A stretch of DNA of 64,000 bases from the NCBI GenBank assembly GCA_018902385.1, contig JABSSW010000029.1, forward strand, positions 1-64,000, in the 5' to 3' direction. Below, in pieces: positions 11,431 through 64,000 of the stretch. Position 1 is the first letter of the stretch. Each line of letters starts with the position of its first letter. The position numbers and the translations under genes were made by a program. The stretch comes from Physcia stellaris (taxonomy: Eukaryota; Ascomycota; Lecanoromycetes; Caliciales; Physciaceae). The notes beneath the pieces are model-generated. The model was not told the origin of the DNA. It ran no database searches and saw only the letters and a program-made list of their open reading frames with translations.

Positions 11431-12379
11431 TTTTGATGCGAAGAACAAATATATACATTTTAAATTTACAATGTAATCGATTGATAGATTGATAAATTCA
11501 TTAAACATTCGAAATCGATTTTAAGAATTCGTTATGCGATTAAAATAAATCGAATCAATAATTTATTAAAAGATTTTTGACTTTATACAAATTAATTTGT
11601 TTTTGATGCTTTTGTTTTTCGATTCGAACAAATTATTTCAAAAATTTTATTTTTATAATTTTTTTTATAATTTTTATTTTGTACGAATAAATTTTCAATT
11701 CAATGCATTTGTTTTGCAATTTTTAATTTTCGTCGTTTGTAATTAAAATTCGTAAATGTTCAATAAATTTTAATTTTTCTGTTACGAACATGTTTAACAA
11801 ATAAAATAAACAAATACATAATTAATACAATATGTGATTGAACAAATATGTCGAAATCGAATTATGTTTTAATTTTACGTCAAAATTAACGTGATTTGAA
11901 TTTTGACGTTTGCATATTATTTGCAATTTTAACATTTTGTATTTATTTGTTTTTGTAAATTTATTGTTTTCGTTTAATTAATCAATAATTACGTTTATTC
12001 AAACTAAATTGATCGCGTCGAATCAAAATTTAAAAAAATCAAAAATTTGATTCGAAAAAATCGAATCAAATTTAAAATATAAAATATAAAATTTGTTTTA
12101 ACGTCAAATTCAAATTTTTGATTTTAATATTTAATTCAAATTTAAATCGACATATTTGATTTGAAATTTGTTTTGACGTCAAATCAATTTTTTTTTTGAA
12201 TTTGAAATTTGATTTAAAAATTTGATTTGATTTAAAATATTATTTATAAAAATAATAAAAATAAATTTTTTTACAAATTTCATTGAAAAAAAAATATTAA
12301 AAAATATTAATCATGAATAATGAATAATAAATTTTAATAATGCAATTTGAAAAAAAATTAATTATTATTCACAAACAAA
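11431..12379. other. AT-rich left flank; part is inverted relative to 53,195-56,870
   Basis: No gene. From about 11,790 to 12,379 the sequence reappears reverse-complemented on the right side of the block: 12,000-12,250 matches 55,375-55,616, and 11,790-12,000 matches about 56,640-56,870. In the right copy a 2.03-kb repeat (53,334-55,367) and about 1 kb of other sequence (about 55,616-56,640) interrupt it. From 11,431 to 11,790 I see nothing identifiable. Confidence 0.6.
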
Positions 12380-14042
12380 TAATAATGCATTATAATAATA
12401 CATTTTCGTTATTTAATTAAATTAAAAATCGAATATTATAAAATTTGTATCGTTCGTATTTTCGTTATTAAAATTTTTTACGTTATTTTTTTTTCGTCAT
12501 TATTGTCGTTTTTTGCATTTTTTTTTTTTTTGATCGCATTGAAAAATTCGATTTTAATATTTCGATTTTTCGCATTGTACGAAAAACAAAATTTTTAATT
12601 ATTTTTCGCATTTTTTTTATCGCGTTAACAAAATTCGTCGTTTTCAATGCGCGAATTTTTATATTATTATAAAAACGCGTTGCGCGATCAATTTCGTCAT
12701 TAAATACAAATATTTTTTATTACGTTTTGCGTTCGTTCAATATTTTTATCGTTTTGAAATTAAATGAATCATTAATTAAATCAACAAATTTTAATATTCA
12801 ATATTTATCGATTGTTACAAAAATTCGAAATTAATTGTTTAACGTATAATTTCGATTGCATTTTTTAAATATCGTTTTGTCGTGTTTATTCGTCGAATTT
12901 TTTTGTTTTGTCGATAAATTTTATTTTTGAAAAAAAAAAACGTTAAAAATTAACTAAAAATTACAATGTTCGTTTGCATTATTTGATTGCATTATCATGA
13001 TTTTTTTTCGCAATACGAACATCGAATATTTTTTTTATCATTTTTTTTTAAATTTTACGATTTTTTTTATCAAATTCAAATCAAATAACAATTTTTATCA
13101 AACTTTTTTGAATTTGAACACAACGACATTATCGATATTTTGTATTTTGTAAAATTTGATTTAAATTTTCGATCAATTTTTTTCGCGATTAACGACATTT
13201 TTTGAATTCGTGAAATAAATTTTAATAAATATAAATTGTGTAAATTTGAATATTTTAAATATAAATATCAACACGATAATGCGATAAAAATGCATTATTT
13301 TTGAACAATGTTTAAAACATACGTCGAATATAAATTAATATCAATTATTCGATAAAATTGAAAACAAATTTGTAATTGAAATCATTAACAAACGTATTGC
13401 GATAAATAATTGAATTATATTTAAAAACGAAAAATAAATCAAATTTGAAAATTCAAATTAATATTGATTCGTTAAATTTGAAAATTTGTGCAATAAAATT
13501 GATTAATATCAATAATACGATATAATCATGCATACAATTTTGAAACGAAAAATAACGAATATTACACACGAAAATAATCAAATTTAACAAATAATTTATT
13601 AATAATAATAAAAATGAAATGTTTTATAATGTCGATCGAAAATTGTCGACATACGATTTTTAAATTTATCGAAAAATTTAAACGTAAAAATTAAAAATAA
13701 TATTTCGATGTAATAAATTTAATTAAACATTTAACGCAATCGTATCGATATTTTTGTAATGTTTATTAATAATGCAAATTTGTATTTCGAAAAAAATGAA
13801 TTTATTGATTAATTTAACAATAATCGTTTTATTGTATGTTTAATTTTGTAATCAATGATAATTTTATTAAATTTTCATTTGTAACAACAATAAATAAATA
13901 AAATAATGCATAAAAATAATGTATAAATTAACAAAATTTAAAATATTTCGATATTTATTCAAAATTTAAAATTGAAAAAAAATTCAAAAATTTTCGTGTT
14001 CAAAAATTCGTAATTTTTTTTAAAACAATCAATCAACAATAA

Positions 14043-16088
14043 TACACAATCTATAAAAAAATGTTCAGTATTATTTTTATTTGACTTTTTGCCGAATCAG
14101 AAAGTCAATTTTCTCGAAACAAAAACATCAAGTTTCATCGCATTTTCATTCACAGTCACTTCGTGTGCACACAAACTCATGAAATTATCAAATTGTAAAA
14201 TTAATTGAGCGCATTTCAACGCATCAACAATCGCATTAATTCGAACAATATTGAGTTTGTTATGAAATTTGAAAGTAAAATGATTTTCGAGCTCGTCGAG
14301 TCTACTTCGCAAATCAGAATCTTTTTCGTTAAATTCGATGTTTTCATCAATTGAAAATTCAAATTCTCAAAAAGAAAGTATATTATTGCTTATTGAATTT
14401 AACACGAACATCGAAACTTTTGTGATCATACAATTGCTTCGCACTTTGTACATCAAGCAACAATCACATTTGACATTGATTTGCTGAAGTCAAATTATAA
14501 AGCAAAATAAGCGCATTTCAACGCATCAAAAATAACGAAAATCGATTCATTATCGCAATAGTTACGATTTATGTAAGTTAATTGATTTGCTGAAAAATTT
14601 ACGAAATGATCAACTTTTTGCAAAATCTCATTTGTTTACTTATTTACTCATTTATCTATTTATTCACGCGAGATTGAAATTTCTCAAACAGTTGCACGTT
14701 CGTCATGAAAAGTTTTTTCGATTTCGATCTATGCAGCAGTGCTCGTTCTCGAAAACAAATCAACAAACACGTCAAAAAACGAGAAATTCGCGAGAAACAT
14801 CGAGAACGAATTATTTTTTCTCTTTTTTTTTTCTTCTTTCGACGATTCAAATCATTTTTACGAAAGTTTATTTTTATTGTCGACAAACAGTTTGCTAAAA
14901 AGCATAATTTCATTCAATATATTCACGATATGAACAATGTCGACAGAAATTACGATATATCATTTTCAACTCGACGTTTTACAGAAGACATTTTTTCATT
15001 GAAAAATTCATTGCGAAATCGACAATTAACGTTTTGCAAAACTTTACAACATGAAATTATTGAACAAAATAAAAATGATTAAAAAACACGATTGACGAAC
15101 ATTTTCACGTTTTCGATCGTATCAAAAAATCACGATATCAAAATATTCGAAATCATTTGTTCGATATTTTGCAAAAAAACATTTTTCGTCGATTCGATTC
15201 ATTATATTTTCACGCATTTCACGACGACAACGACGAAAACGTCGAAACAAACATTCGTTTTTACATCGAAAATTTTCGATCGATATTTGAATTCGAAACA
15301 AACGAAAAGAACAACATCGATTGAATGTTTTTAAAACGTTTCAAGAAACGAAAAAATTGAATCATGATCGACTTTTTCAAAAAATCATTCGATCATGAAA
15401 TGAAATTGTTGAAAAATCGAAAACGTTTTCAATTATTTCGACATTTTTACAAAAAATACGTTCGAATTTGATCAATATCGTCGTTTTTCGAAAAAAACAT
15501 TCAAATAATTTTTGTTTGCAAACGTTATTGAAGATTTCGAGTAAAAAAAAAAAATCATTTTGCAATTTCCAAATGTCAACATATGTACATAGAATTCAAA
15601 ATGATCGATATTAGAACAAATACATTTTGATATTCTATTGCGTTATATTCAATCGAAAATCATGATATGTCTCGAAGATGTGATCAAATGATTGCAATTT
15701 TTGCAATTCAGACTGTTTGACATTGAAATTCTCATTCATATTCTCAAGTTGATTTGCGACATTTTTTTTTTTTGATTTGATTAGTTCAAATTTTTTTGAC
15801 GTTTCAATCATCGAACTTGCGTTTTACAATTGTTTCGCATTTTGCATTTCAATCAACAATCATTTATGATTTTGACTTATTTAGTCAAAATTGTAAAAAC
15901 AAAATAAGCGCATTTCAACGTCGCAAAAATAACAAAAATCGATTCATTATCGCAATAATTTTGAAACTTTCAAAATTACATCGTTGTCAAATTTGTGTTC
16001 GTTTCGGATTTTGCAATTTTATCAAATCTGACTTTAATTCTACGAGTTTTCGACAAAGTTTTTTTTAAAAAACTTTCGAATCTATTTG
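14043..16088 (+). repeat. 2.04-kb unidentified repeat (family D), copy 1
   Basis: About 2.05 kb, collinear with 53,334-55,367 and, in a shorter form, with 36,686-37,602. It interrupts copy 1 of the 3.08-kb unit. It carries conserved plus-strand reading segments at 14,705-15,082, 15,092-15,334 and about 15,365-15,590. Identical strings are kept in the other copy, for example KHNFIQYI, DMNNVDRNYD, SFSTRRFTE, NRQLTFCKT and QHEIIEQN. A minus-strand segment at 14,097-14,312 (VRINAIVDALKC, QLILQFDNFM) is conserved too. No terminal inverted repeat or LTR was found. A repeated motif (GCGCATTTCAACG ... CATTATCGCAATA) occurs at about 14,205, 14,510 and 15,905. Class unknown. Confidence 0.6.
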
Positions 16089-16195
16089 TTGTTATTGTTA
16101 AAACGATAATTAAAAACAATAAAAATATTGTTGATAATATTTTAACAAAAAATATAAATATTAATAAAAATAATAATGCAAAAAAATAATGTATA

Positions 16196-22798: not shown

Positions 22799-24044
22799 GT
22801 ATAAATTAACAAATAATAAAACGTTTTGTTAAAAAAATTAAATTGTTTGTTTCGTTTTCGATTAATATTTCGTCAATCAATTGAAACATTTTGAATAACG
22901 TTATTTAAAAATTTAAATCGAAAATTGCGATTGAAATATTTGTTGAATTTGATAATAAAAATTTTTTAAAAAAACGCAAAATAATAAAATCAATAAAATC
23001 AATAATAATAATAATTTTTTATTTTGTAAATCGAATAATGCATGACGATAATACATAAATTAACAAATTATTATAATTGTTAAAAATAAAAACATCGCAA
23101 AAAGAATTCGAAATAAAAACATTTCAAATGTTTAAAAATAAAAATAATGTCGAAAATAATAATTCGAATAAAAAAAAATTAATAAAAATAAAAATTTAAA
23201 TGCGAACAATTTCGATAATAATGTTATTTTTGATATTAAAACGAATAAAAATAATCGAATTTTGAATAAATCGAATAATATATTAAAATAATATACAAAT
23301 TAACAAATCGAAATACGTATTATGAAAAAAACAAATCGATAAATAAATAATAATATTGATATAAATAAAAACAAAACGTCGATCAAAAAATTACAATAAT
23401 TAATTTTAATTGCGTTCAATTTTTTTCAAACGTTCAAATTTTTTTTTATAAATTAAAAAAAAATCAATCGCAAAACGTTTGAATTTATTAATTAAAAAAA
23501 ATAACGAACAAATCGATAATACATTCAATTTATATGTTATTGAATATTGATTAACATATTAATAAAAACACAAACAAATAAAATTCGAAACAATCGTATT
23601 GCGAAAAATTAAACATTTTCAAAAAATCATTGAATTTTTAATTACAAAAAAATCGTTCGCGAAATTTAAAAAAAAAAATAATACAAAAACAAATGCAAAT
23701 GTCAAAATTCAAATATTGATTTTTGAAATTTTGCAAAAAAAATATCGAAACATTTGTTATAAAAATGTTTAAAAATAAATCAAATATATTATTTTTGCGT
23801 ATTATTTTTATAATTAATTGTTATAAAATAATTTATGCAAAAACGATTTATACGAAACGAATAATTTTTCAAATAAAAAATATTCATTTTGTTCGAAATA
23901 TTTTAAAAATATTTGTAAATAACAATGTTACAATTATTTAAATACAATGTTATTTTTTGTTGAATAATTAATTTGCATAATTTGAATTCGTATTTAAATT
24001 GTTTTTTATTTTAATATTTGTTATATGTAAAATGAAAATTAAAT

Positions 24045-27000
24045 AATAATGTATAATAATAATACATTTTCGTTATTTAATTAAATTAAAAATCGAATAT
24101 TATAAAATTTTTATCGTTTATATTTTCGTTGTTTTCGAATTCGTTTTTGTTATCGAATTTTTTTACGTTTTTTTTTCGTTATTATCGTCGTTTTTTGCAC
24201 TTTTTTTTTTTGATTGCATTGAAAAATTCGATTTTAATATTTTGATTTTTCGTATTGTACGAAAAAACAAAGTTTTTAATTATTTTTCGCATTTTTTTTA
24301 TTACGTCAATAAAATTCGTCGTTTTTAATACGCGAATTTCAATATAATATAAAAACGCGTTGCGTAATTAATTTCGTAATTGAATACAAATATTTTTTAT
24401 TGTGTTTTACACGCGCGTTGATATTTTTATTATTTTGAATTTAAAATAAATCATTAATAAAATCAACAAATTTTGACAAATTTTGACATTAAAAATTCAT
24501 TGATTATTGCGAAAATTTGAAAATCAATTGTTTGACGTATAATTTCGATTGCATTTTTTAATATTGTTTTGTCGTGTTTGTTCGTCGAATTTTTTTTATT
24601 TTATTAATAAATTTCATTTTTCAAAAAACACGTTAAAAATTAATTAAAAATCGCAATTTTTATATGTATTATTCAATTATATTATTATAATTGTCGTTTT
24701 CAATACGAACATCGAACATTTTTTTTTTTATTTTTTTATAAAAATTTTACGATTTTTTTATCAAATTCAAATCAAACAACGATTTTTCATCAAATTTTTT
24801 TGAAATTTAAACACAACAATATTATCGACATTTTGTGTTTTTATAAAATTTGATTTAAATTTTCGATCAATTTTTTTCGCGATTAACGACATTTTTGAAT
24901 TTTGAAATAAATTTTAACAAATGAAAATTGTGCGAATTCGAACATTTTGAATATAAATATCAACACGATAATGCGACAAAAAAATGATATATTATTTTTA
25001 AACAATATTTAAAACGTACGTCGAATATAAATTAATATCAATTATTTAATAAAATTGAAAACAAATTTGTAATTGAAATTATCAACAAACGTGTTACGAT
25101 AAACAATTGAATTATATTTAAAAACGAAAATAATCAAATTTGAAAATTCAAATTAATGTTTATTGTTAAATTCGATGAAATTGTATACAATAAAATTAAT
25201 TAATATCGATAATGCGATATAATTATGTATACAATTTTGAAACGAAAATAACGAATATTACATACGAAAATAATCAAATTTGACAAATAATTTATCAATA
25301 ATCAAAAAAAAATGAAAATTTTATAATATCGATCGAAAATTGTCGACACGCGATTTTGCGTTTATCGAAAAATTTAAACGTCAAAAATTAAAAACAATAT
25401 TTCGATAAAAAATTTAATTAAATATTCAACACGATCGTATCGATATTTTTGCAACGTTTGCAAATAATACAAATTTGTATCGCGAAAAAATGAATTTATT
25501 GATTGATGAACAACAATCGTTTTCATCGTATGTTTAATTTTGTAATTAATGACAATTTTATTAAATTTTCATTTGTAACAACAATAAATAAATAAAATAA
25601 TGCATGAAAATAATGTATAAATTAACAAAATTTAAAATATTTCGACGTTCATTTAAATTTGAAAAATTGAAAAAAAAATTCAAAAAATTTTTTTCAAAAA
25701 TTCGTTAATTTTGTTTTTCAAAACGATCAATTAACAATTATTATTGTTAAACGATAAATGAAAATAATAAAAATATTATTGATAATATTTTAACGAAAAA
25801 TATAAATATTGATAAAAATAATAATGCAAAAAAACAATATATAAATTAACAAATGATAAAACGTTTTGTTGAAAAAATTAAATTGTTTGTTTCGTTTTCA
25901 ATCAATATTTCGTCGATCAATTAAAACATTTTGAATAACGTTATTTAAAAATTTAAATTCGAAAATTGCGATTGAAATATTTGTTGAATTTAATAATAAT
26001 AAAAAATTTGATTGAAAAAACGCGAAATAATAAAATAATTTTAATAATATTAATAATTTTTTGTTTTGTAAATCGAATAATGCATAACGATAATGCATAA
26101 ATTAACAAATTATCGCAATTATTAAAAATAAAACATTCAAAAAAAAAAAATTCAACATTCAAAAATGTTTGAAAATCGAAAAAATGTCGAAAAAATAAAA
26201 ATGAAAAAATATTGAAAAAAATGAAATTCAAAATAATAAAAAATTCGATAAAAATAAAAATGATATTTTCGATAATAATATTATTTTTAATATTAAAAAA
26301 ATAAAAATAATCGAATTTTCAAATAAATCGAATAATGCGTCAAAATAATACACAAATTAACAAATCGAAATATACGTTATAAAAAACAAATCGACAAATA
26401 AATAATGACATTGATATAAATAAAAACAAAACGTCGATCAAAAAATTACAAAAATAATCGCGTTTAAATTTTTTCGCGTTCAAATTTTTCGCGTTTAAAT
26501 TTTTTGCGTTCAAATTTTTATTTAAATTTTTTTATAAATCGAAAAAAATCAATCGCAAAACGTTTAAATTCATTAAATTAAAAAAATGATAAACAAATCG
26601 ATAATATATTCAAATTATGCGTTATCGAATATTGATTAACATATTAATAAAAATACAAACGAACAAAATTCGAAATGATCGCATTGCGCAAAAAATTAAA
26701 CGTTTTTAAAAAAACGATTGAATTTTTAATTACAAAAAAAATCGTTCGCGAAATTTATAAAAAAAATGATGCAAAAATAAAAAAAAATGTCAAAATTCAA
26801 ATATCGATTTTTGAAATTTTGCAAAAAAATATCGAAACGTTTATTATAAAAATAATTAAAAATAAATTAAATATATTATTTTTGCGCATTATTTTTTGAT
26901 AATTAATTATTATTATAAAATAATTAATACAAAAACGATTCATACGAAACGAATAATTTTTCAAAAAAAATATTCATTTTGTTCGAAAAATTTTGAAAAT

Positions 27001-47124: not shown

Positions 47125-49474
47125 TGTTACGGTAAAACCTCCACATAGAGCTGAAGTCAGGATATCTTGACCAGAAGGGACTAGCGCCTTGACAGCCTGG
47201 CCCATATCTCGCACTCTGCCTCCTAGATAGTAACAATCAAGCATATTATCCACCCACATCACGATTTATCGTAACAATGGTAGCATCATCGAGCAAACGA
47301 TTGACAGCTTCTATCGCTGTCTTATAAGCAGCTTCTAGTTACCGTGTAACGCCTAGCTGCCCTGCAGTATCCAACTCCTGTGGAGTGCCTAGTCCAGCAG
47401 ACGATAATTGCTGCAACTCCCGTGGAGTATTCAGTCAGACCTGACGATAAACGGTCCTAATTGCAGTGCAATACTCAGTTGCTCTGCAACAGTCAGCATT
47501 TATTGCACCAGAACACCCAGTTGCGAATCCGCAATAACCAGAACCAAATACCCAGTCAGAATACCTAGCTTTCGAGCACCAATACATTCGGCGCCAGAAA
47601 ACCTATCCACGAGTCCTCCGCAGCCCTCAATAACTAGCCACTGAGCACCAGAAATTCCTGTCCCGAAAACTTCGCAATAACCAGCCTACCTACTCATTCA
47701 ATCATGCCCCCTCGACAATCAGAAATCGATCATTGGCGAAGGCAATACGAGCACGAAATCGGCTTCTTTTATCCGGATCTGCCAATCAGTCACATTTATC
47801 CTGAAGGCGACTCCCTCACAAACCGTGACAGTAATCTGACCGTGTATCGAGAGGTCAAGCAATTCGTACAGATTATCAAGAGCAAGACAGATATACATCT
47901 AGACGCTGAATTGATAGCTCATTGTTGTTTTCGTGGAGTTGCATCTGAATGGTTCTTCGGTCTTCTCGACTTTTGCAAGATCATTTGACAAGAGATCTGG
48001 ATGCGCTGTGCAATCGCATACTTCAGAAATTCGATACAACAAAGCAGAAGGAGGAGCAAGAACGTCTGCAACAACAACAAGCCGAACAAGCCCGCATTGC
48101 GAAGGAGAAAGCAGAAGCATTTGCATGCAGGCGTTGCCCTGCCAAGTTTCCGAGCAATACAAAACTCCATCAGCATGTGCAAGATCACCACCAGAAGAAG
48201 CCTGCAAAGCCTGCAAGCGAGATCGCAATGCCCTCATCAAACGAGTCCACCAAATCTACACCAAGCGAGTCCGCAGTAACTACACCTCCCGCAACACCTC
48301 CATCGAGTGAGCCAGCATTGGTGGTCACACCACGTCCTAGCCAATCAGAATCGGCCTCCAAAACCTCACTTCCAGAAACTACACCAACTGCCACATCAAG
48401 GCAGTCAACCCCTACAAGCTCTGCAACACCAAAGAAACCAATATTCTGGGCCGAAATAGCCTCACGCCCAGTCATTGCACCGAAGCCTTCGCGTCTCCCA
48501 GTCCCTACACCAAAACGAGTACCAAATATCGCGGAGATCGCACCAATAACGTGCCCGCCTACTCCGCCGCCTACCCCCCTGGGCCAGTACCGAAACACCA
48601 ACACCAAAAACCCTATCTTACTATCGATGACCTGTTCGAGATGTTTGCTGAGAAGCGCACAATATCAGGCCCATTACACACCAGGAAGACCAAATCCTTC
48701 CCGAAGGTCTCCCACCAGTCCAAGATTACGTCCTACTTCAGGCCTACAACCAATCAGGGCCCCTCGATTAGTCAGGGCTCGAAAACTCCAAATCCGAGGA
48801 GTTTTCAACAGCATACGCCCGCGGAATCGAACCGCACCAAATCCAGACCTCCTGCCCAAAACGTGTCTGAGAAATCGGCCGTTTTACCATGCAAATCATC
48901 GACCTTCTCCCGCCTACCTTCATCAGAGATATCGAGCATCTCGCCATACAAATCGGCCAATATCTCTCGCTGCAAATCCACGATTTGCCCGCCTCCTTCA
49001 TCTACTCCTCGAGCACCTTCCGGCATCTCCGCCTCCCCGCACGCCTGCCGCATCTGCAGCGGTACTTTCGGATCGAACAATGGCCTGCATCGTCACCTAC
49101 GGGCAATCCATTTCGACCAAGCGACTCGCCGGCATCGCCGTTGGATCATCTAGCTATCTCTGGCCGGGCGCAATCTTCAGAGATACCTGCGCCAATAAAC
49201 GGAGAACTTGGCCGTTTCCTTACTTCTTTACATGTATTACTAATAGATTTCTCATGGATGGATTGCATGTCCCCGCCACGCGGCACAACGAGGGCGTTGT
49301 GATCTTCTTTCGTTGGTGGCATCTGTTACGGTAAAACCTCCACATAAAGCTGAAGTCAGGATATCTTGACCAGAAGGGACTAGCGCCTTGACAGCCTGGC
49401 CCATATCTCGCACTCTGCTTCCTAGATAGTAACAATCAAGCATTTATCCATCCACATCACGATTTATCGTAACA
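47125..49474 (+). mobile_element. Young, nearly unmutated non-autonomous LTR element with gag-like and C2H2 zinc-finger coding
   Basis: LTRs of 151-152 bp lie at 47,125-47,276 and 49,324-49,474. Both start TGTTACGGTAAAACC and end TTATCGTAACA, giving a 7-bp inverted repeat at the LTR ends. A perfect target duplication CAAAC flanks it (47,120-47,124 and 49,475-49,479). The interior of about 2.05 kb has normal GC. It encodes a gag-like start at 47,704-47,988 and a Gln/Glu-rich segment from 48,040. A C2H2 finger lies at 48,126-48,188, then a long Pro/Ser/Thr-rich region, then a second C2H2 finger at 49,046-49,111. No protease, reverse transcriptase or integrase is present, so it must depend on another element. 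The interior looks broken in about two places. The LTRs are about 97% identical, so the insertion is recent relative to everything around it. It sits in the Ty3/gypsy element at 36,566-50,243. Confidence 0.9.
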
Positions 49475-50243
49475 CAAACGAATATTGAATAGCAAATGTT
49501 TGAACGTCAATAATACAACAAAAAACGAACGATAAAATTGCAAATAAAATGAAAAATTGAAAAAGAAAAAAGATAAAAAAAATGATTTGAACAATTCATT
49601 TTATTATTATTTGTAACAAATGTATACAAATGCGAATGCGAAATTTTCTAATCAATAATCGAAAAATACGCACGTTGAAAATGACGAGTTGTTAACGTAC
49701 GTTTCACAAAGCAAAAAAACATTTAATTGATAAATAATCATTCATTTTTTGAACAAAATTCGATTTTTGATGAAATAAATAAATCAAATTGTTAATATTG
49801 TTGACGACGACGACGATATTAATTAATTAATGTAAACAATTCGTAAATTATTTACGTAAAAATATTGTAATAAATAAATCAAATTGCAATACGAAATTCG
49901 AAAATGCAACGAAACGAACGAAACGAACAAATTGATTGAAATAAATATTGATTGATCGAATAAATCGAATTATTCGATGTTGATTTTGATATTAATATTT
50001 TAACAAACGAATATTGATATTGCGTAAAAGAATTTTGATCGATTTGTTAATTATCAATGATACAATACAAAATTCGATGATATTATCATATGTTATTATA
50101 CAAAATTGTATAATGTAAAAAAATAAATTGATTAATTAAAAAAAACTGTTAATTAAATATTACACGTGTCAAAATATTATAATTTCGAAACAATCATTTA
50201 TTAATCATTTAATTAATTATGTTAATATGTCAATGTTATAACA

Positions 50244-53190
50244 ATTATTTACAAACATTTTCAAAATGTTTCAAACAAAATGAATATTTTTTATTTGAAA
50301 AATTATTCGTTTTGCATAAATCGTTTTTGCATAAATTATTTTATAACAATTAATTATAAAAATAATACGCAAAAATAATATATTTAATTTATTTTCAAAC
50401 ATTTTTGTGACAAACGTTTCGATATTTTTTTATAAAATTTCAAAAATCGATATTTGAATTTTAATATTCGCATTTATTTTTTGTATCATTTTTTTACAAA
50501 TTTCGCGAACGATTTTTTTACAATTAAAAATTCAATAATTTTTTGAAAACGTTTAATTTTTCGCAATGCGATCGTTTCGAATTTTGTTCGTTTGTATTTT
50601 TATTGATATGTTAATCAATATTCGATAACGCATAATTTGAATGCATTATCGATTTGTTTATCAATTTTTTAATTAATAAATTTAAACGTTTTGCGATTGA
50701 TTTTTTATTTGATTTATGAAAATTTTTAAACGTTTAAAATTTGAACGCGAACAATTTGAATGTAAAAAATTTAAACGCAAAAAAATGAACGTAATCAAAA
50801 TCAATTTTTGTAATTTTTTAATCGACGTTTTGTTTTTGTTTATATTAATGTCATTATTTATTTGTCGATTTGATTTTTTTATAATGCGTGTTTCGATTTG
50901 TTAATTTATGCATTATTTTAACGCATTATTCGATTTATTCAAAATTCGATTATTTTTATTCGTTTCAATATAAAAAATAATATTATCATCGAAATTGTTT
51001 GTATTTAAATTTTTTTATCAATTTTTTTTTCGAATCATTGTTTTCGAAATTTTTGTATTTTTAAACATTTGAAATATTTTTTTTTTCGAATTTTTTTGTG
51101 ATGTTTTTATTTTCAACAATTACAATAATTTGTTAATTTATGTATTATCGTTATGTATTATTCGATTTACAAAACAAAAAACTATTAATATTATTAATAT
51201 TATTGATTTTATTATTTTGCGTTTTTTCAAATTTTTTATTATTATCAAATTTAACAAACATTTCAATTATCATTTTTAATTTAAACTTTTGAATAACGTT
51301 ATTCAAAATGTTTCAATTAATCGACGAAATATTGATCGAAAACGAAATAAACAATTCAATTTTTTTTAACAAAACGTTTTATCATTTGTTAATTTATGCA
51401 TTATTTTTTTGCATTATTATTTTTATCAATGTTAACATTTTTCGTTGAAATATTATTAACAATATTTTCATTGTTTTTATTTATCGTTTTAACAATAACA
51501 ATTGTTGATTGATTGTTTTGAAAACAAAATTCACGAATTTTTGAACACGAAAAGTTTTTTCAATTTTTTTTTTCAATTTTTAAATTTTGAATAAACGTCG
51601 AAAATTTTTAAATTTTGTTAATTTATGCATTATTTTCATACATTGTTTTATTTATTTATTGTTGTTACAAATGAAAATTTAATAAAATTATTATTGATTA
51701 CAAAATTAAACATGCGATGAAATGATTGTTATTTATTAATTAATAAATTTGTTTTTTCGCGATACAAATTTGCATTATTAATAAACATTGCAAAAATATC
51801 GATACGATCGCGTTAAATGTTTGATTAAATTTATTGCATCGAAATATTGTTTTTAATTTCGACGTTTAAATTTTTCGATAAACGCAAAAATCGTGTGTCG
51901 AAAATTTTCGATCGATATTATAAAACATTTCATTTTTTTTCGTTATTGATAAATCATTTGTCAAATTTGATTATTTTCGTTTATAATATTCGTTATTTTT
52001 CGTTTTAAAATTGTATTTATAATTATATCGTATTATTGATATTAATCAATTTTATTACACACAATTTTTCAAATTTGACGATTAAATATTAATTTGAATT
52101 TTCAAATTTAATTTATTTTTCGTTTTCAAATATAATTCAATTATTTATCGTATTACGTTTGTTGATGAATTCAATCACAAATTTGTTTTCAATTTTATCG
52201 ATTGATTGATATTAATTTATATTCGACGTACGTTTTGAATATCGTTAAAAAATAATATATTATTTTGTCGCATTATCGTGTTGATATTTACATTCAAAAT
52301 ATTCGAATTCGCACAATTTACATTTGTTAAAATTTAATTTACGAATTCAAAAAATGTCGTTAATCGCGAAAAAAAAAATCGAAAATTCAAATCAAATTTT
52401 ACAAAATACAAAATGTCGATAATGTTGTTATGTTCAAATTTAAAAAAAAAATTGATAAAAATTGTTGTTTGATTTGAATTTGATAAAAAAATTCGTAAAA
52501 TTTTGAAAAAAAAAATATTAAAAAAAATATTCGATATTCGTATTACGAAAAAAAATTATAATAATACAATTGAATATTACAAACGAATAATACAATTTTT
52601 AATTAATTTTTAACGTTTTTTTTTTGATAAATGAAATTCATTCACAAAACAAAAAAAAAATCGATAAATAAACACAATTAAACGATATCAAAAAAAATAC
52701 AATCGAAATTATATATAAAACAATTAATTTCGAATTTTCGTAACAATTAATGAATATTAAATATCAAAATTTATTAATTTTATTAATAATTTATTTTAAT
52801 TTTAAAACGATAAAAACATTAAACGAACGTAAAACGCAAAAATCAAATATTTATATTCAATTACAAAATTAATTACACAACACGTTTTTTATAATAATAT
52901 AAAAATTCGTATAATAAAAACGACGAATTTTATTAACGCGATAAAAAAAATGCAAAAAACAATTAAAAAATTTGTTTTTTCGTACAATGCGAAAAATCGA
53001 AATATTAAAATCGAATTTTTCAATGCGATAAAAAAATGCAAAAAACGACGATAATAACGAAAAAAAAAACGTGAAAAAATTCGATAACGAAAACGAATTC
53101 GAAAATAACGAAAATACGAACGATACAAATTTCATAATATTCGATTTTTAATTTGATTAAATAACGAAAATGCATTATCATGATATATTA
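50244..53190 (-). repeat. 3.08-kb repeat unit, inverted, copy 5
   Basis: Reverse complement of the unit as seen at 24,045-27,124. It is cut near its end by the Ty3/gypsy insertion, beyond which the last 0.1 kb is found at about 36,450-36,565. Both internal repeats and unit ends are recognisable, including AATTTATGCATTATTTT-type motifs at about 50,900, 51,370 and 51,620. Confidence 0.7.
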
Positions 53191-53333
53191 TCATTTGTTT
53201 ATAAATAATAATTTTTTTTTTTTCAAATTGTATTATCAAAATTTATTATTCATTATTCTTGTTTAAAAATTTTTCAATATTTTTTTTTTTCAATAAAATT
53301 TAAAAAATAAAATTATTTTTGTTATTTTTTATA
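53191..53333. other. Inverted copy of the left flank next to the repeat unit
   Basis: Reverse complement of about 12,245-12,380. It continues to the right of the D repeat at 55,368-55,616. The join shows where the D repeat entered. Confidence 0.6.
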
Positions 53334-55367
53334 ATACACAATTTATAAAAAAAAATATTTGATTATTTTTATTTGATTTTTTTGTCGAATTAAAAAATCA
53401 ATTTGTTCGAAACAAAAATATCAAATTTTATCGCATTTTCATTCACAATCATTTCGCGTACACACAAATTCATAAAATTATCAAATTGTAAAATTAATTG
53501 AACGCATTTCAACGCATCAACAATCGCATTAATTCGAACAATATTGAAATTGTTATGAGATTTGAAAATAAAATGAATTTCGAATTCGTCGAGTCTGTTT
53601 CGCAAATCAGAATTTTTTTGTTAAATTCGATGTTTTCATCAATATTTAATTCAAATTCTCAATCAGAAAATATATCATTGCATTTTGAGATTAGCACGAA
53701 CATCAAAACAACTCGAATTCATACAATTGTTTTGCATTTTGCACATCAAACATCAATCACATTCAGATTTGATTTGTTGAAATCAAATTATAAAACAAAT
53801 TAAACGCATTTCAATGAATCAAAAATAACGAAAATCGATTCATTATCGCAAAAGTTTTGATCAATGTAAATTATTTGCTCGATTGAAAAATTCGTCAAAT
53901 GATCATCTTTTGCAATCTCATCTGTTTATCTATTTATTTATTTATTTACTTATCGATTTATTTGCACGAAATTGTATCAAATCAAATTTTTCAAACATTT
54001 GCACGTTCGTTATGAAAAATCTTCTCGATTTCGATTTAGACAACAATGTTCGTTCGCGAAAACAAATCATCAAACACGTCAAAAAACGAAAAATGCGCAA
54101 AAACATCGAAAACGATTTTTTTTTTTTTTTTTTTTCGACGATTCAAATCATTTTCACGAAAATTTTTTTCATTGTTCGTAAACAATTTGTTCAAAAGCAT
54201 AATTTTATTCAATACATATACGATATGAACAATGTCGACAGAAATTACGATGTATCATTTTCAACTCGACGTTTTACAGAAAACATCTTTTCATTGAAAA
54301 AATTATTGAAAAATCGACAACTAACGTTTTGCAAAACTATTCAACATGAAATTATTGAACAAAATCGAAAATGACTAAAAAACACGATTGACGAACATTT
54401 CGAAATTTTCGATCGCATCAAAAAATCACGATATCAAGACATTCGAAGTCATTTGCTCGATGTTTTGCAAAAAAACATTTTTCGTCGATTCGATTCATTA
54501 TATTTTCAAACATTTCACGACGACAACGACGAGAACGTCGAAGCAAACATTTGTTTTTACATCGAAAATTTTCGATCAATATTTGAATTCGAAACAAAAA
54601 AAAATAACATCGATTGAATGTTTCTAAAACGTTTCAAAAAACGTAAAAAGTGAATCATGATTGATTTTTTCAAAAAATCGTTCGATCATGAAATGAAATT
54701 GTTGAAAAAATCGAAAACGTTTTCAGTCATTTCACGTTTTTTGCAGAAAATACGTTCAAATTTGATCAATATTGTTGTTTTTCGCAAAAAAAACACAAAT
54801 AATTTCTGTTTGCAAACGTTGTTGAAAATCATCGAAAAAAAAAATCATATTGCAATTTTCAAAAGTCAGCATTTGTACATAGAATTCAAAATGATCGATA
54901 TTAAAACAAATGCAATTTAAAATTCTATTGCGTTATATTCAATCGAAAATCATGATATGTTTCGAAAATATGATTAAATGATTGCAATTTTTGAAATTCA
55001 AATTTCATGTTTGACATTGAAATTTTTTCAATTATTTCGAGTTTGCGACATTCTTTTTCGATTTGATTAATTCAAAATTTATTTGACGTTCAATCATCGA
55101 ATCGTACAATTGTTTCGTATTTTGCATTTCAATCAACAATCATTTATGATTTTCATTTATTTAATCAAAATTGTAAATCAAAATGAACGCATTTCAACGT
55201 CGCAAAAATAACAAAAATCGATTCATTATCGCAATAATTTTGAAATTTCGAAAATTACGTCGTTGTCAAATTTGTGTTCGTTTCGAATTTTGCAATTTTA
55301 TCAAATTTGATTTTAATTTTACGAATTCGAACAAAGTTTTTTTTAAAAAAATTTTCGAATTTATTTG
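53334..55367 (+). repeat. 2.03-kb unidentified repeat (family D), copy 2
   Basis: Flanked by TA (53,332-53,333 and 55,368-55,369). The empty site can be read from the inverted left flank at about 12,240-12,250, which supports a TA target. Plus-strand reading segments 53,883-54,374, 54,388-54,627 and 54,657-54,920 align with those of the copy at 14,043-16,088. They carry invariant strings such as DMNNVDRNYD, TRRFTE, CKKTFFVDSIHYIF, HFTTTTT and KQTFVFTSKIFD. No recognised domain. Minus segment 53,390-53,605 matches 14,097-14,312. The long frames surviving heavy mutation suggest the original was protein-coding. Confidence 0.65.
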
Positions 55368-55615
55368 TAAATAATATTTCAAATCAAATCAAATTTTTCA
55401 AATCAAATTTCAAATTCAAAAAAAAATTGACATGACGTCAAAACAAATTTCAAATCGAATATGTCGATTTGAATTTAGATTTAACATTAAAATAAAAAAT
55501 TCAAATTTAACGTCAAAACAAATTTCAAATTTTGTATTTCAAATTTGATTCGATTTTTTCGAATCAAATTTTGATTTTTTTTTCAAATTTTTGATTCGAC
55601 GCGATTAATTTAATT

Positions 55616-56640
55616 TCAACATTATAAATCAATTTTTGAAATAATTGAAATCGATATCACGTATCGATTAAATATAATCGTCAATTTCGTCGATCGTTCA
55701 ATCAATCAAAAATGACAACAAATAAATTCGTATTGTAATAATCGTTATTGATCGTCATTTTGTTATGTATTTTCGTTTTTCACAATCGTTAAATGAAATT
55801 CATTTCATTAATAAACGTGAATGAATCAAAATGTTTGACGAAACGACGTTTTTTTGAAACGTTAAAAACAAACATATTGTCGTTATCGTTATTTTGACGT
55901 TTTTTTTTTGTTAATCGATAATGTTTGATATTTTAATTGCAACACGTCTTAATTGTTTTAAAAAATGTTATAAATTATATCGTTTAAATTTTTAAAAAAG
56001 TTTTTTTCGTTAATTGAAAATTAATTTTTGCGAATTTGTTAAATGTTATTTTGAAATGTATTCGCAAATTTTTAATATTGATTAAAAAATTTCAAATAAA
56101 TGTTTCGATTCGAACGTAAAACATCGAATTTTTGCAAAAATTTGACGATATGATTTTCGATTCATTATTTCAATTGATTAACGTTTTAATAACGTTCAAC
56201 AAATAAATAATATCGTTACTTTTTACAAATATATTTATACGCGTAAAAACAAATTCGCGACGTTTAAATTGAATAACAATTTTTTTTCATTAATGTTATC
56301 GATTATTTGTTTCAAATAACGATCAATTTCGACACGAAAAATTTCAAATAACGAATTTTCAAACGAAAAAAAAAATTATGATAATTTCGAATTATAACAA
56401 AAAATGAAAAATTGACGATTGTAAATAAAAAAATAAATTGTTTGTTGTTCGTTTTATCGTTTTTTATCGTCGAAAATTTCGTTGTTGTTTCGTCAAAAAA
56501 ATTCAAATCGTTTGTTTAATTAACAAAAAGTTTCGTCGTTTGTTTCGACAAAAAACTTTAATCGATTTGAAATTTTATTTTTGATCGTTCGCGTATTTCG
56601 ACGAACGATAAAAATTGAAAATTTATTGTAATATTATGAA
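55616..56640. other. About 1-kb insertion interrupting the right inverted flank
   Basis: The left flank is continuous across 12,000, but on the right its two halves (55,375-55,616 and 56,640-56,870) are separated by this stretch. The bases at the two edges (AATTT and TGTTT) resemble a mutated target duplication of AGTTT in the left flank. No gene, LTR or inverted repeat was recognised; it could be a solo LTR. Confidence 0.4.
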
Positions 56641-57199
56641 TCGTGTTTAAATAAACGTATTATTTATTAATTAAACAAAAACAATAATTGCAAAAACAAA
56701 TAAATACAAAATGTTAAAATTACAAACAATGTACGACGTCAAAATTCAAATCACGTTAATTTCGACGTAAAATTAAAATATAATTCGTTATTTAATTACA
56801 TATTATATTAATTATTTATTTGTTAAATTTATTTGTCAAACATGTTCATTACATAATTGATTTGATATTGCGAAAAATCTTGACGATTTTATTTCGCAAA
56901 CGAAATTCATTTCGTGAAAATTCGTAATTTTTTTTGTTTTAATAAATATTCGATCAAACGTGTCATGTTATGTCAAAATCGTTAAACATGTTAATTTGAT
57001 CGAATTTAACGTCTTGATCGATAAATATAACATTTCGAAAATTTTCATTTTTTTTTTTCGTTTTCACGATTCAATTTTATCATTATTCACAATGTTATCA
57101 CGATAATTTATCATTCGTTTCGTAAACATTGCGTTTGTTTATAATCATTTAATTATTCAATCGCATATTTTTTTACAATTTTGAATCGTTTCAATTTTC

Positions 57200-60100
57200 G
57201 TAAATGATTATTCGATCAAATGACATCATTTAAAATTTCGAAAATATTTGTTGTCGTTGCGTTCGTGATTCGAAACAATATCGTTATTTCGTTTCAACAA
57301 TTATCATTCGACAACACGATCGTGAAATCGTTTCAATTTGAAATCGATCAACGAAACGAATTGATTTCAATTCATGAAAATTCATCAAACGATGAACGCA
57401 TTGTTGTTGTTTTTCGCGTGTCGTTTCGACGTATTATCGTCGTTTCAACGAACGTCGACGATTTCGAATTCGATAATTAAATCGATTACGCACAATTGCG
57501 AACAATTCAAACGATAATTGAAAAAAAAACGAAAAACAAACGTGAATATAAATTGTTTTTGAAAAAAATCAAACGTTTCGATACAACGTCATTTCGAAAA
57601 AACGAAATTAATTCAATTCGCGTTGTTGAAAAAAAACGAAAACGTTTATAAACGTTTTTCAATAACGAAAACGACGATAACAATGACGACAACGAAAAAT
57701 TTTAATAAATTTATTTCGAAACGTTCGCGTTTTCGACGAATTATCGAATTCAAATTCAAAAATTTATCGATTTACAACGTCAAAAATATTAAAAAATTTC
57801 AATCGTGAATTCGAAACGTCGTGTAAATTTTCGAACAAATTTTAATTATTTTTTCAAATAATGTATCAAAATCGTTTGAACGCAACAATTTTTTAATCAA
57901 CGATTTCAATCGAATTATGAAAATCGTATCAAAAAATCAATCAACATCGAAAAAATTTACGATAATTTGAACGTGATCGTATTTTTCGAAATTTTTTATA
58001 ACGATGTCGAATTTTTTGAAATTCGTCGTTTTGATATGAATCAAAAATACAATAATGTCAAACAAAAAAAAACGATAAATGAATTCGCGACGTATTTCGA
58101 ATCGTTAAAAACAAAATTGAACGTTATCGAAAATATCAAACGAAACAAATTTTTTTATGATTTGAACGATATTTTACGAAAAATTATCATATTCGATGCA
58201 ATTTCGTCGACGATTCGTCAAAAAATTTTGATCAAAATCGTTAATACGAAACGATCGTTATTTTATTCAAAAATTTTCAAAACGTTTTCGATTTTCGCAA
58301 ATTTCTTCGTTCGATAATCGTGAACGTCAAAAAAATAAAAAATCGTTCAAAAAAATTTTTTTGCGCAATTTGATAAAACGAAAAATCAATTTAATAAAAA
58401 TAAAAAAAACGATATCGACACGTCGACGAAAAAAAATCGAAATTGTTACAATTGCGATAAATCAAAACATAAAAAAAAAAAATTGTTTTTATTCAAAAAA
58501 AAAACAATCGTCGACGTCAATGCGATTCGCAAAAATAAAAACAAAACATTTTCAAAATTTATCGAAATCAAAAACGATTCGAAAAATTGAAAAAATTTGT
58601 TGCGATAATCGTCGTTGTCGTAACGAATTTACACAAAATTTAATCAAATAACATATTCATTCGCGTTAACGTCAATATTTTTGAAAAATAACAATCGTAA
58701 ATGAATTTCATGAATTTTGTCGTTAACATAAATTGCATTTCGAAATCGTTAACGAAAAAATAAAATTTGCAAAATATCGACGAAACGTTCATGAAAATGA
58801 ATAATTTCGATGTTGAAAACAAATTTTTCATTAATACGTATCAAATGAAAATGAATATTCGTGATAACAAAAATAATTTTTTTATTTCGATGCAAAAATT
58901 TTATTCGTTTCAAAATTTGATATATTTTTTGATAATGAATTTTTCATAAATAATGAAAAACAATTTACATGTACATTGATTCACGATAACGTGACGTTAC
59001 ACAATCAAAAAAATCGATTGAAATTGAACATTTTCGAAAATTTCACGACAATGTTAAACGATAACATTATTTCAATATACGCGTTAATATGTATTATACG
59101 AAAAAACGACGAAACGTCGATCGAAATTTCGAATGAATTGCAAATATTCGAAAATATGTTTTTTTTTCAAATCGACGATCACGTTTTTTTCGCACGACGA
59201 ACACGATTATGTTATTGATTTAATGTCGAACAAATTTTCGTTTTTCGAATTTTTGTACAATATGTTTCAAAAAAAATTAAAAATTTTTCAAAAATACATT
59301 CGCGAAAATTTTGCGTTGAATCGTATTAAACATTCGATTGTCGATATTGATACGTCGATATTGTTCATTTTCAAAAAAAATGAAAATTTAAAATTTTGCG
59401 TAAATTACAAAAATTTGAATGCGATCACGATCAAAAACAAAATTTCATTATCGTTGATTGACGAAACATTGAATCGTTTGATAAACGTCGCGTATTTTAT
59501 TAAATTAAATTTAAAAAACGCGTATTATCGTATAAAAATCAAAACAAATAACGAATGAAAAATCGCATTTCGAACACGATACGATTTTTTCGAATACGTC
59601 GTGATGTTTTTCGATTTTGTTAACGCGTCGACGATTTTTCAATTTTTAATGAACAAAATATTTGCAAAATTGATAAACAAATTGTGTGTATTATTTTTAA
59701 ACGACATTTTGATTTATTTTCGAACGAAAAAAACATTGACGTTACGTAAAAACGATTTTTAAACGTTTTCGAAAATTCAATTTTTTCGTCAATTTGATCA
59801 AATGTCGATTTATGCAAAAATTTATCGAATTTTTTTTTAAAATATATCATCAATAACAAAAAAATATTCATAAAAACAAAAAAATAAATTCGATCAAATC
59901 ATGATCGATTTTTGAATTGTCAATTTTAAAAAAATTTTTGTTAAATTCGAAAATTTTTTCAATTGAAAATTCAAGTTTTCAATTTTTTCAAAAAATTCGA
60001 AACAACATTCAATTAAGAATTTTTTTAAAAAAATTGAAAAATTTTTTTGAAAATAATTCGATCAAATCGTAATCGCAAATTTTTTTGAAAAATTTTTATC

Positions 60101-62500
60101 GAAAATTCATCGTAAAATACGCGAAAATGTCGCGTTCATTTTTCGAATTATTGAAAAATAACAAAAACGAAAAACAAATCGACGAATTCATTTGAAACGA
60201 CGAAACAATAAAAATTTTCAAAAAATTTATTCGCATGTTTATCGAAACGTTCATGTTAATATATTTCGATTTCAATAATCGAACAATGATTGAAATCGAT
60301 GTTTCAAAATTCGTTATCGCAAAAATGATTTCGCAATTAATAAAAAATTTCGATATCGAAAATTAAACGCAATAACATTTCGTCGTTTTTTATTCAAAAA
60401 AAATAATATTTGTCGAAATCAAATATTCAACGCACGATCAAAAATTGTTTGTTATCGTGAAAAATTTCAAACAATGACGTTATTATTTAAAAAATAATCA
60501 ATTTACGATTATCGTAATGTCGAATTATAACAATTTGAAATATTTTATGTTTATTACGTTTTTGAACAAACGACAAATCAAATAAATTTTATTGTTAAAC
60601 GAATACGATTTTGAAATCAAATACAAAAATAAAAATTTCAATTTAACAAACGAATCATTTCGACGTTCAAATTACGAAAACGAAAAAAAAAAAACGATAA
60701 CATTTGTTTATTTACATTGCAAAACAAATTTCGAAATATCGCAATTGCAAATATAACGTTTTTAACGAAATTTGAACAATGCGAAAAAATTTTTGATAAA
60801 AAATTTTCAAAAAAAAAATTTTCAAAACGAAATTATCGCGATATCGCAAACAATACGTCGAAAAAAAAATTGTTGAAACATGTAACAAAAAAATTCGTAC
60901 GAAAATTTATTTTCAAAAATTTTTTCAACAAAATTAAAAATTACAAATACTTGACAACGAAATTCGAATTTGAAAAAAACGACAATTATATATAAAATTA
61001 TTAAAAAAAATAACAAAAAATTTTAATTGACAAAATCAATTTTTATATTTGTTATTTTTTTTTCATTACAATTTGCAATTTTTATTTTATATTAACGTTC
61101 GTTTTTTTTTTTTTGAAACAAATTACAAAAAATTCGAAACGTTGTTTTTAACGCAATTTCAAAAAATTCAAAACTTTTTTATTTTCATTTTTCAAAATTC
61201 GCTTTTTCGAAAATTTTCAAAAAAATTTCAAAACGAAATTGATTTCGTTAAATATTGTTTCGACTTCGAAAATGATTATTATAATGCGAAATTCAAAACG
61301 AATTGTTTTATTTCGCAATAAAAATTTGTTTGTAAATTTCGTGATTTTGACGAAAATCGTTTTGAAAAACGTTTGAATTGAAAACGACAAAATCGTTTGT
61401 TGAAAAAATTCGTTACGAAAATTTTGATCAAAAAAATTTAAAAAAAATTTTTATTATTACAAACGTTGTGATTTTGAAAATGTTTTGTCATTGATTCAAA
61501 AAAATAATCGAAATTTCGAATAGAATTTGAAATTGTGATAGAAAAAAAAACGTTCGCAAAAAAATCGAATTCGAATATTCGTCGAAAACAAAAAATCGCG
61601 CGATTCAATCAAAATCTAATTCGACGTAAAAAAAAATTTGAAAAACGATGAATTAAAAATGTAAAAAATAATATATAAAATTTCGAATTTGCGTTTAGAC
61701 ATTTTTACAACGTTTTTTTTTAAATAATTTGACAACGAATGCGTAAAACGTCACGCGTTTCAAATCGAAAAAAATTTTTAAAATTAAATACAAACAATAT
61801 TTTACGATATTGATAAATTGTATATTATTAACGAAAAAATTTAAAAATCGAAATTTTGCGACGTTGTCACGATAATTTTTTTGCGAAATATTTCGAAATT
61901 GAAAAAATCGTTGATTTCATTCAACGAAAATTTTATTGAATGTACATGCGAAAAAATATCGAAAAATACATCAAAAAATGCGCGATTTGTCAAAAAACAA
62001 AAATTTATTATTATCGTTTTTACGAAAAATTGTCGAAATTGTCGATATCGACAAAATCGTAAAAAAAAATTATCATTGATATAATCACAAAATTTTCATT
62101 TAATAAATGACGCAAAAAAATTTACGATTCGATTATAATAATAATAAATCGATATATCAAAATGACAATTTACGTTTCGATCAAATTTATTATAAAAACA
62201 AACAAAATATGTAATTTGTTTTTCGACGACGTTTTTTTGAAATATAATTTATCGAAAAACATAATTTCAAATCGTGAATTTTTGTTCACAAACAATTTTT
62301 GATTAACATTATGTTATTACGCGAAAATTAAACGCAAATTTAATATCGTTTTTTATTTACAAACAAATAATTAAACAAAAAAAACAAAATTAAAATTTGA
62401 AATTATTTGTAAAATTTTTGCAATTACAAACAAAACAATTGAATTCGTTGTTGTTAAAAATTTTTATATACAATTGCGCGAAAAATATTTATTGAATTAA
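57200..62500 (+). mobile_element. Ty3/gypsy retrotransposon interior, plus orientation, heavily mutated
   Basis: Gag-like segment 57,967-58,317 (TINEFATYFESLKTKLN). A CCHC zinc knuckle at about 58,443-58,484 has the exact C-x2-C-x4-H-x4-C spacing. Reverse transcriptase N-terminal half 59,220-59,558 has ENFALNRIKHS, CVNYKNLNAITIKNK and LIDETLNRLINVAYF. The palm follows to about 59,760, then RNase H-like pieces at about 60,200-60,700. An integrase is not clearly readable. No LTR pair was found: the 5' LTR should lie between about 56,870 and 57,200 or overlap the inverted flank, and the 3' end is uncertain. The element is an old fossil with many breaks. Confidence 0.8.
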
Positions 62501-62825
62501 TTTTATTTGAAATTTTGTATGACGAACGTATATCGAATTCAACATTTAACAAAATTAATATCGAATTAACATCGTTATTTTATCACATCGAATGTTAAAA
62601 TCGAAATTCGTTTTGACGCATTCAAAAAATCAAATTTTTTACATATGTTTTTACAAATTTTCATGTATTTGTTTTTCATTTCGATATTTTCGTGTAATTA
62701 TGTAATAATATTATATTTTTGCATAACATTTCACATTATATCGAAATTTTTTTTTCATGTTCGTTCATAATACGCGAACATTCAAATAAACAAAACTTTT
62801 TACAATTAAATTCAATGAACGAATA

Positions 62826-62935
62826 AAAACATAATAAATTCAATTTGATTTTGATCATTCAACGAAAACAACGAAACATAATAAATTCGTTGTGAATTGA
62901 AAAAAACGAAACATAATAAATTCGTTTGTTTTGTT
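62826..62935 (+). repeat. Short tandem-like repeat of AAACATAATAAATTC
   Basis: Three copies of AAACATAATAAATTC (the first is AAAACATAATAAATTCA) spaced by roughly 40 bases, at about 62,828, 62,875 and 62,914. Function unknown; possibly part of an LTR or untranslated leader. Confidence 0.55.
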
Positions 62936-64000
62936 TTAAAAAACGTTCAAAACAAACGAATTCACGCGATAATTTCGATTCACAATACAACAAACTTTTT
63001 TTTTTTTTTATCATTTTTGACGAAACATTCGTGTTTGAAAATCAAAAAATTATCAAAATTAGCAAAAAAAAACATCAACAAACAAACATTTTTATTCAAC
63101 ATTTATTTGTTTCATCATAAACAAACATTTAAAATTTCATTCAACATCACATCGAATTTGTCATTTTAAATAAAATTCAATATCAAAATTTATTTAAATC
63201 ATTGTTTTGTTTAAATTTTTTTTTTTCTGTTTCAACAATTATTCGATTTCAATTTACAATCATGATTTTTTCAAATTTTTTTTTCGAAATCAATTTGAAA
63301 AATCGATTATTGTTTAACGAAATCACACAATTGAACGTGTATATTTTTGATCGAATAATTACAAATTTCGAACAACATATCATTGACATTTTTTTTGTCA
63401 TAAATTTTAATCAAAATGATGATAAATTTGATGAAAATGAATCGTTCAAAATCGTTAATTCGATAAACATTTTTTCGAAACAACAATTTCAATCAATAAT
63501 CGTCAATTATCTCGACGAATTATGAATTATTTTCGAAATTTTTCGACGAAATCGAGATCGAAAAATGATCGTCATTCGAATTTGAAATTTTCAAATAAAA
63601 AACATGAAAATCAAAATTTCGAATCATAATAAAAAAAAATATGAAATCAACGAAATTTTGCGTGTCGTCAAAATCGAAATTTTTGTTGTTTAAATTCAAT
63701 GTAATGAATTTTTCAAAATTCAACGAATTCGTGAAAATAAAAATAAACAACGAAAAAAAACTGTTAAGTTATCAAAATCTGAAAAATTTTTCAATTTCGA
63801 GAAAAAATCTCGTTTTGAATTTAAAAAACGTTCGTTCAAACAATTTGATTTTTTTATTGAAAAATTTCGTTTTGATTTTAAGACGCGCTCGTTCAAACAT
63901 TTTGATTTTTTTATTTTTTTCGAACACAAGAATTTCAATACGTTCGAATACATTCGTTATGATATTTGAAAAAATAAATGCATTGATAAATTGAAAATCA
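62936..64000. other. AT-rich end of window with unassigned reading segments
   Basis: Plus-strand frames 63,202-63,525 (RIITNFEQHIIDIFF, QQFQSIIVNYLDEL) and 63,641-63,994 are Asn/Lys/Phe-rich and unrecognised. They may be the start of another mobile element that continues to the right. CT and AG dinucleotides are slightly more frequent near 63,760-63,900. Confidence 0.4.

Follow-up and report, generated by a model that had tools for sequence, protein, structure and literature searches.

Two long tracts in the 64,000-nucleotide stretch of Physcia stellaris DNA analyzed here (contig JABSSW010000029.1, C29:1-64000; hereafter the window) have lost almost every cytosine that stood before a pyrimidine, on both strands. 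Probably they are repeats rewritten from C:G to T:A by a repeat-directed process of the repeat-induced point mutation (RIP) type, acting on both strands in the order CpC > CpT >> CpA > CpG. The signature combines one base change with an order of sequence contexts, recurs on several contigs, leaves genes outside it unmutated and ends at a sharp edge. Genome searches covered the 43,974,083-base assembly of 147 contigs, and published work is cited from excerpts of the papers named.

The hypermutated tracts lie at 11,431-47,124 and, on the far side of an island formed by a long terminal repeat (LTR) retroelement-like insertion, at 49,480-64,000; positions 1-11,430 have normal composition and serve as the control. 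The first tract retains 2 CC, 4 GG, 179 CT and 170 AG (observed/expected ratios 0.00-0.11), against 1925 CA (1.26), 1974 TG (1.25) and 1888 CG (4.18). In the second, CC and GG are both 0 and CT and AG are 45 each, with ratios of 1.22 for CA, 1.14 for TG and 4.64 for CG, whereas all 16 dinucleotides of the control lie between 0.76 and 1.16. These counts bear out the original prediction, made from the letters of the window, that C is kept before purines and almost lost before pyrimidines, with AG and GG near absent and TG and CG common. In 200 mononucleotide shuffles of 11,431-47,124, CC+GG averaged 902 (minimum 822) and CT+AG 3115 (minimum 3006), compared to 6 and 349 observed. The 5' neighbor of C has little influence on its survival in the tracts, where C makes up 0.41 of C+T in TCA and 0.47 in TCG. 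Most 1-kb tract windows have a G+C content of 0.15-0.29, and TA is depleted (observed/expected 0.54 in the first tract and 0.50 in the second), which is the opposite of what CpA-type RIP does.

The boundary between normal and hypermutated DNA, at 11,401-11,450, is sharp to about 50 bp: counted on both strands, CpC+CpT is 9-19 per 50-bp bin in 11,101-11,400, drops to 7 in 11,401-11,450 and stays at 0-2 per bin throughout the seven that follow. At the other end the tract extends past the window, with CC+GG 0 and CT+AG 29 in the 5 kb of C29:64,001-69,000. Several segments within 11,431-47,124 are repeated, the longest about 4 kb, at 82-90% identity.

The direction of change is clearest in an rDNA pseudogene on contig C41, which has small-subunit, 5.8S and large-subunit parts and whose rRNA genes are mutated at CpC and CpT. 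The ancestral state was read from positions marked by Rfam as strongly conserved, in 25 hand-chosen alignment pieces from which poorly aligned, variable or unprinted stretches were excluded. At these positions, C had become T at 72 of 77 CpC, 41 of 84 CpT, 1 of 63 CpA and 0 of 66 CpG sites (3' pyrimidine versus purine, Fisher test 3e-40). The 290 conserved C/G sites carry 114 C-to-T changes and no other change, and conserved A/U positions changed at 5 of 504. This near-complete change of CpC next to almost unchanged A/U argues against slow drift. The pseudogene was studied in two pieces, L005 (C41:44,399-47,552, the 5.8S site with 1,500-base flanks) and L036 (C41:35,001-44,000), and is the sole 5.8S match among the best 39 of 2644 candidates scored; the one pattern tried for an intact rDNA unit, that of the ITS1 primer with up to 2 mismatches, found none. 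Compared with the Rfam models, its small- and large-subunit parts carry long insertions, which may be mutated introns.

The same rule is found in a repeat family with an unmutated copy. The repeat at 14,039-16,089 (plus strand) has 61 match rows in the assembly, from which 13 copies were fetched and compared to the unmutated copy L050 (C1:537,099-539,181, G+C content 0.46), whose 350-residue frame matches no Pfam family over the 330-residue part scanned. C-to-T changes relative to L050 amount to 2060/2472 at CpC (0.83), 2062/2984 at CpT (0.69), 443/3570 at CpA (0.12) and 274/2425 at CpG (0.11), the 5' base again making only a small difference, and C:G-to-T:A accounts for 4909 of the 7020 substitutions in the family. 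The rates at CpA and CpG are about those of general divergence, except in L049 (0.19 versus 0.07) and L055 (0.36 versus 0.17), the copies with the greatest CpT loss. Within the window, the copy at 14,039-16,089 is less saturated (CpC 168/200, CpT 165/242, CpA 24/287, CpG 17/194), and a second copy lies at 53,331-55,368, plus strand (CpC 182/197, CpT 203/241, CpA 24/292, CpG 14/191).

The earliest stage of the process can be followed in LTR pairs. The two LTRs of one element are normally identical on insertion, so that differences between them arose afterwards. In 20 such pairs the sites that differ are 45 of 334 at CpC (0.135), compared to 10/400 at CpT, 9/364 at CpA and 5/185 at CpG (all three about 0.025), counted irrespective of direction; the CpC excess suggests that the earliest action, after insertion, was at CpC alone. 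These pairs come from 20 of 30 loci: L011 was excluded as the same element as L007, and L025, L026, L027, L029, L030, L032, L033, L034 and L035 for having no or one LTR match, whereas L023 was included, its two LTR matches lying side by side.

Later stages appear where copies are compared with each other. Two overlapping copies at 22,800-26,731 and 25,840-29,830 (together 22,800-29,830) are fully saturated at CpC and CpT, and differ between them by C/T at 157 of 327 CpA and 38 of 275 CpG sites. Across the six most saturated of eight copy-versus-copy pairs, which overlap and are hence not independent, the C/T difference is 0.48-0.56 at CpA and 0.05-0.15 at CpG, while the other two pairs, less saturated, vary at CpT (0.86 and 1.00) and little at CpA (0.13 and 0.12). 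Among 500-bp windows drawn from all fetched loci (634, overlapping ones included), CpT falls from above 45 to 0 with CpC already gone, CpA falls late, from 70 to 50, and CpG is nearly constant; in none of the 634 is CpA below both 45 and CpT, so that at this cut-off CpA is not lost where CpT is kept. Three comparisons thus agree on an order of CpC, then CpT, with CpA a late third and CpG near baseline.

These comparisons sharpen the original prediction. Its C-to-T process on both strands, with a 3'-pyrimidine rule, is upheld by the rRNA, repeat-copy and LTR-pair data, as a graded rule that appears to act on repeated DNA. Its wording of CpT and CpC, "not CpA", holds for the leading targets but not for the late stage, since CpA is also hit in the saturated pairs and in L049 and L055, which together rule out a plain rule sparing CpA. 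It had also named CpA as the main changed context between copies as a finding that would speak against it; such prominence does exist among saturated copies, because their CpC and CpT are saturated, whereas against the unmutated L050 CpA is minor. A comparison of saturated copies reveals the next context in line, here CpA, and not the preferred one, and the same effect could explain the CpT-dominated alignments of Neurospora crassa Tad1 (PMC2621366).

The signature is found well beyond the window. Two of 20 two-kb samples taken at position 300,001 of contigs C1-C20 show it (C8 and C12, CC 0), and among six further pieces it is present on C29, C41 and C50 and absent from those on C1, C90 and C120; the samples are small, and no genome fraction is derivable from them. 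The mutated tracts include repeats present on several contigs.

Standard RIP indices fail on this DNA. With thresholds from PMC7882544 and PMC2621366, namely TpA/ApT ≥ 0.89 with (CpA+TpG)/(ApC+GpT) ≤ 1.03 in one set, and > 1.15 and ≤ 0.75 with a composite > 0 in the other, neither set flagged any of 48 tract windows of 1 kb, and (CpA+TpG)/(ApC+GpT) ≤ 1.03 alone was passed by three. Such thresholds serve to detect CpA-type RIP and do not define what RIP is. An index built on pyrimidine (Y) and purine (R) neighbors, (CpY+RpG)/(TpY+RpA), is 0.00-0.09 in 49 tract windows, and divides 40 sampled windows into 4 at 0.02-0.04 and 36 at 0.63-1.27. As RIP surveys use CpA-based indices, such tracts would be filed as RIP-free.

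The assembly encodes candidates for the enzyme. The PF00145 profile matches at three places, on C3, C5 and C6. The C3 protein P0003, partial because it ends at the locus end, is strongly similar to 9bap_A (E 2e-181) and 9baq_A (E 2.9e-181), whose entry name is DNA (cytosine-5-)-methyltransferase and which we take to be DIM-2; it carries the triad ENV and is, by sequence, a DIM-2-like protein. Proteins of the Masc1/RID class are marked by EQT or EET instead of ENV and by a short target recognition domain (PMC6709928). The C6 and C5 proteins (P0001 at L001 and P0002 at L003) have partial PF00145 matches of 116.5 and 102.8 bits, SPPCQ in motif IV and, in motif VI, EET and EQT, respectively; these PCQ and EQT/EET marks place both in the RID class. 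They are 40% identical over 174 residues. The recognition domain of the EET protein comprises about 70 residues, as judged by eye after our own exon joining, which fits the class mark of about 80. In the EQT protein, the N-terminal and catalytic parts are separated by a long stretch that looks low in complexity.

The homolog search that the original prediction proposed thus yielded two RID-class proteins and one DIM-2-like protein. Its differently specific RID/DIM-2-type enzyme is supported to the extent that such genes are encoded, their action on the tracts being inferred, while for its other suggestion, another deaminase, there is no positive support; PF00383 has 8 match rows, which are unclassified. 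One MATalpha_HMGbox match is compatible with a sexual cycle, and no more; together with a Pre-SET match and the RID-class genes, it fits a filamentous ascomycete. The UDG profile has 2 matches, as does PF01048, which is of no use here.

In the RIP-type process that we favor, C would be chosen by its 3' neighbor, CpC first, CpT next and CpA late, and a RID-class enzyme would carry the changed specificity. Guidance would come from DNA homology within the sexual cycle, as in RIP; the mutated tracts contain repeated DNA, and unique DNA would in general be spared. By a weak correlation drawn from two papers, the EET gene may be the first candidate, because RID of Botrytis cinerea has EET (PMC6709928) and B. 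cinerea T4 is predominantly CpT-mutated (PMC4352252). Tentatively, and with more doubt than confidence, we propose that a RID-class duplicate, the EET form, exchanged its CpA target for CpC/CpT and now carries out the initial and heaviest part of RIP, CpA being a late side reaction or the work of the second RID or of DIM-2. If true, evolution could alter RIP specificity through a single small recognition domain, and CpA-based surveys would miss RIP in such lineages. With two RID-class paralogs side by side in the genome, the short recognition domain can be set against the target in a natural comparison. By the codon table, change at CpC/CpT would yield few stop codons (TGG to TGA, but not CAA or CAG), so that nonsense inactivation should be weaker than in CpA-type RIP.

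The main rival dispenses with a RID-class mutator: DIM-2-type methylation at CpC/CpT in heterochromatin, with the 5-methylcytosine then deaminated. It can draw on the DIM-2-like gene, on the mainly non-CG methylation by N. crassa DIM-2, with CpT preferred (PMC13297926), and on Zymoseptoria, where a functional dim2 increases mitotic C-to-T change at CpA (PMC8016269); yet dim2-dependent 5-methylcytosine in Zymoseptoria is on CG, CA and CC and hardly on CT, a different order (PMC8016269). The sharpness of the 11,430 edge counts against this route, and the pseudogene contrast, 72/77 at CpC versus 5/504 at A/U and 1/129 at CpA and CpG combined, is judged too large for slow deamination. The contrast weighs against slow decay, though it leaves an active DIM-2 route untouched; we regard the rival explanation as unlikely. 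A division of labor between two layered activities, with CpC/CpT the work of one enzyme and CpA that of another (the EQT RID or DIM-2), is a possibility, if a rather doubtful one. The genome has three cytosine methyltransferase-type genes, and CpA change is high in only some copies (L055 0.36, L049 0.19) and 0.05-0.09 in seven others of the same subfamily; against this, CpA loss follows CpT exhaustion smoothly, and none of the 634 windows has CpA below both 45 and CpT, so that one enzyme of graded preference suffices.

Damage by ultraviolet light would fit CpC and CpT as pyrimidine pairs, and the PF00383 matches leave room for an APOBEC/AID-like deaminase, but we hold both to be extremely improbable. 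Ultraviolet light would strike TpC too, whereas TCA and TCG retain much of their C, and in the pseudogene C before a purine changed at 1 of 129 sites. AID/APOBEC enzymes read the 5' side, whereas here the 5' base matters little; as main causes, both are excluded by the TpCpR data and the small 5' effect. Hardly any probability attaches to plain AT drift or to a sequencing or assembly artifact either: the tracts are AT-rich, but C survives before G and A, the contrast is set by the 3' base, and the pattern recurs on several contigs and is polarized against rRNA.

Several observations weigh against the RIP-type interpretation or parts of it. When lower-case Rfam positions are added to the rRNA comparison, the contrast weakens to CpC 234/311, CpT 131/212, CpA 28/188 and CpG 48/256, the consensus at those positions being less reliable. 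In all 13 repeat copies CpY change is commoner on one strand (2326/2905 versus 1855/2628 overall); the mutation is two-stranded, though not perfectly even. Three loci (L008, L015, L024) supply 22 of the 45 CpC differences in LTR pairs. The link between EET and CpT is weak, because Magnaporthe oryzae, whatever its triad, is also predominantly CpT-mutated (PMC4352252). A genome search for the HP1 chromo-shadow domain (PF01393) gave no match, but no control match either. L050, itself a repeat copy, stayed intact, and the repeated family of the LTR island is hardly mutated. In 19 of its 29 other loci, all compared on the plus strand, C-to-T change is 0.105 at CpC, 0.090 at CpT, 0.058 at CpA and 0.099 at CpG; the copies differ by every kind of change and lack the pronounced context dependence seen in the tracts. 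Not every repeat has been rewritten. We can only guess that this family was spared because it inserted recently or because its copies are too dissimilar to each other.

The island itself (47,125-49,474, plus strand) is a hardly mutated LTR retroelement-like insertion amid mutated DNA, flanked by a CAAAC target duplication at 47,120-47,124 and 49,475-49,479. Its 5' LTR (47,125-47,276, plus strand, 152 bases) and 3' LTR (49,324-49,474, plus strand, 151 bases) are 97% identical, with three substitutions, all C/T (two at CpT, one at CpC), and one 1-base gap. The family has at least 91 match rows, with the best 40 of 140 candidates scored; it is numerous and diverse (the island and L006-L035), and many copies lie beside mutated DNA. 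A 461-residue frame weakly resembles a C2H2 zinc finger, scoring under the Pfam cut-off. On the minus strand of the control flank, 776-3711 contains fragments that are presumably ABC transporter-like, judging from their motifs, and that introns or decay may have spread across several frames, and a frame at 9886-10,350 resembles what we take to be a family III CoA-transferase.

Compared to known systems, the tracts resemble N. crassa RIP in their dense, two-stranded C:G-to-T:A change over kilobases of DNA that contains repeats, with genes outside intact, and in the presence of RID-class and DIM-2-like genes. They differ in order, which is CpA > CpT > CpG > CpC in N. crassa (PMC5496416) and CpC > CpT >> CpA > CpG here, in that TpA is not raised across the tracts, and in the failure of the standard indices. 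That the order varies by species has experimental proof in Trichoderma reesei, where CpA and CpG lead and CpC, first here, comes last (PMC5496416); every target order that we found stated, for N. crassa and T. reesei, puts CpC last (PMC5496416). Closer are the fungi with a CpT signature, B. cinerea, Sclerotinia sclerotiorum and M. oryzae (PMC4352252) and Anisogramma anomala, which has two rid homologs and one dim-2 homolog (PMC10998396): they share CpT as a main C-to-T context and a RID/Masc1-type gene, but there CpT pairs with CpA and the excerpts name no CpC signature, whereas here CpC comes first and CpA takes third place. In filamentous ascomycetes, rRNA pseudogenes mutated by RIP (PMC5555474) are likewise rDNA full of C-to-T and G-to-A changes, but with CpA/TpG most mutated instead of CpC and CpT. 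CpC as the leading target was not found in the open-licence PubMed Central literature, as excerpted and with few subscription papers, and may be in print elsewhere. Clutterbuck 2011 is said to be a survey of RIP in ascomycetes. We read the tracts as RIP-type mutation with a shifted specificity, in which the CpC-first order is the part that may be new, CpT-rich signatures being already published (PMC4352252, PMC10998396, PMC2621366, PMC7882544).

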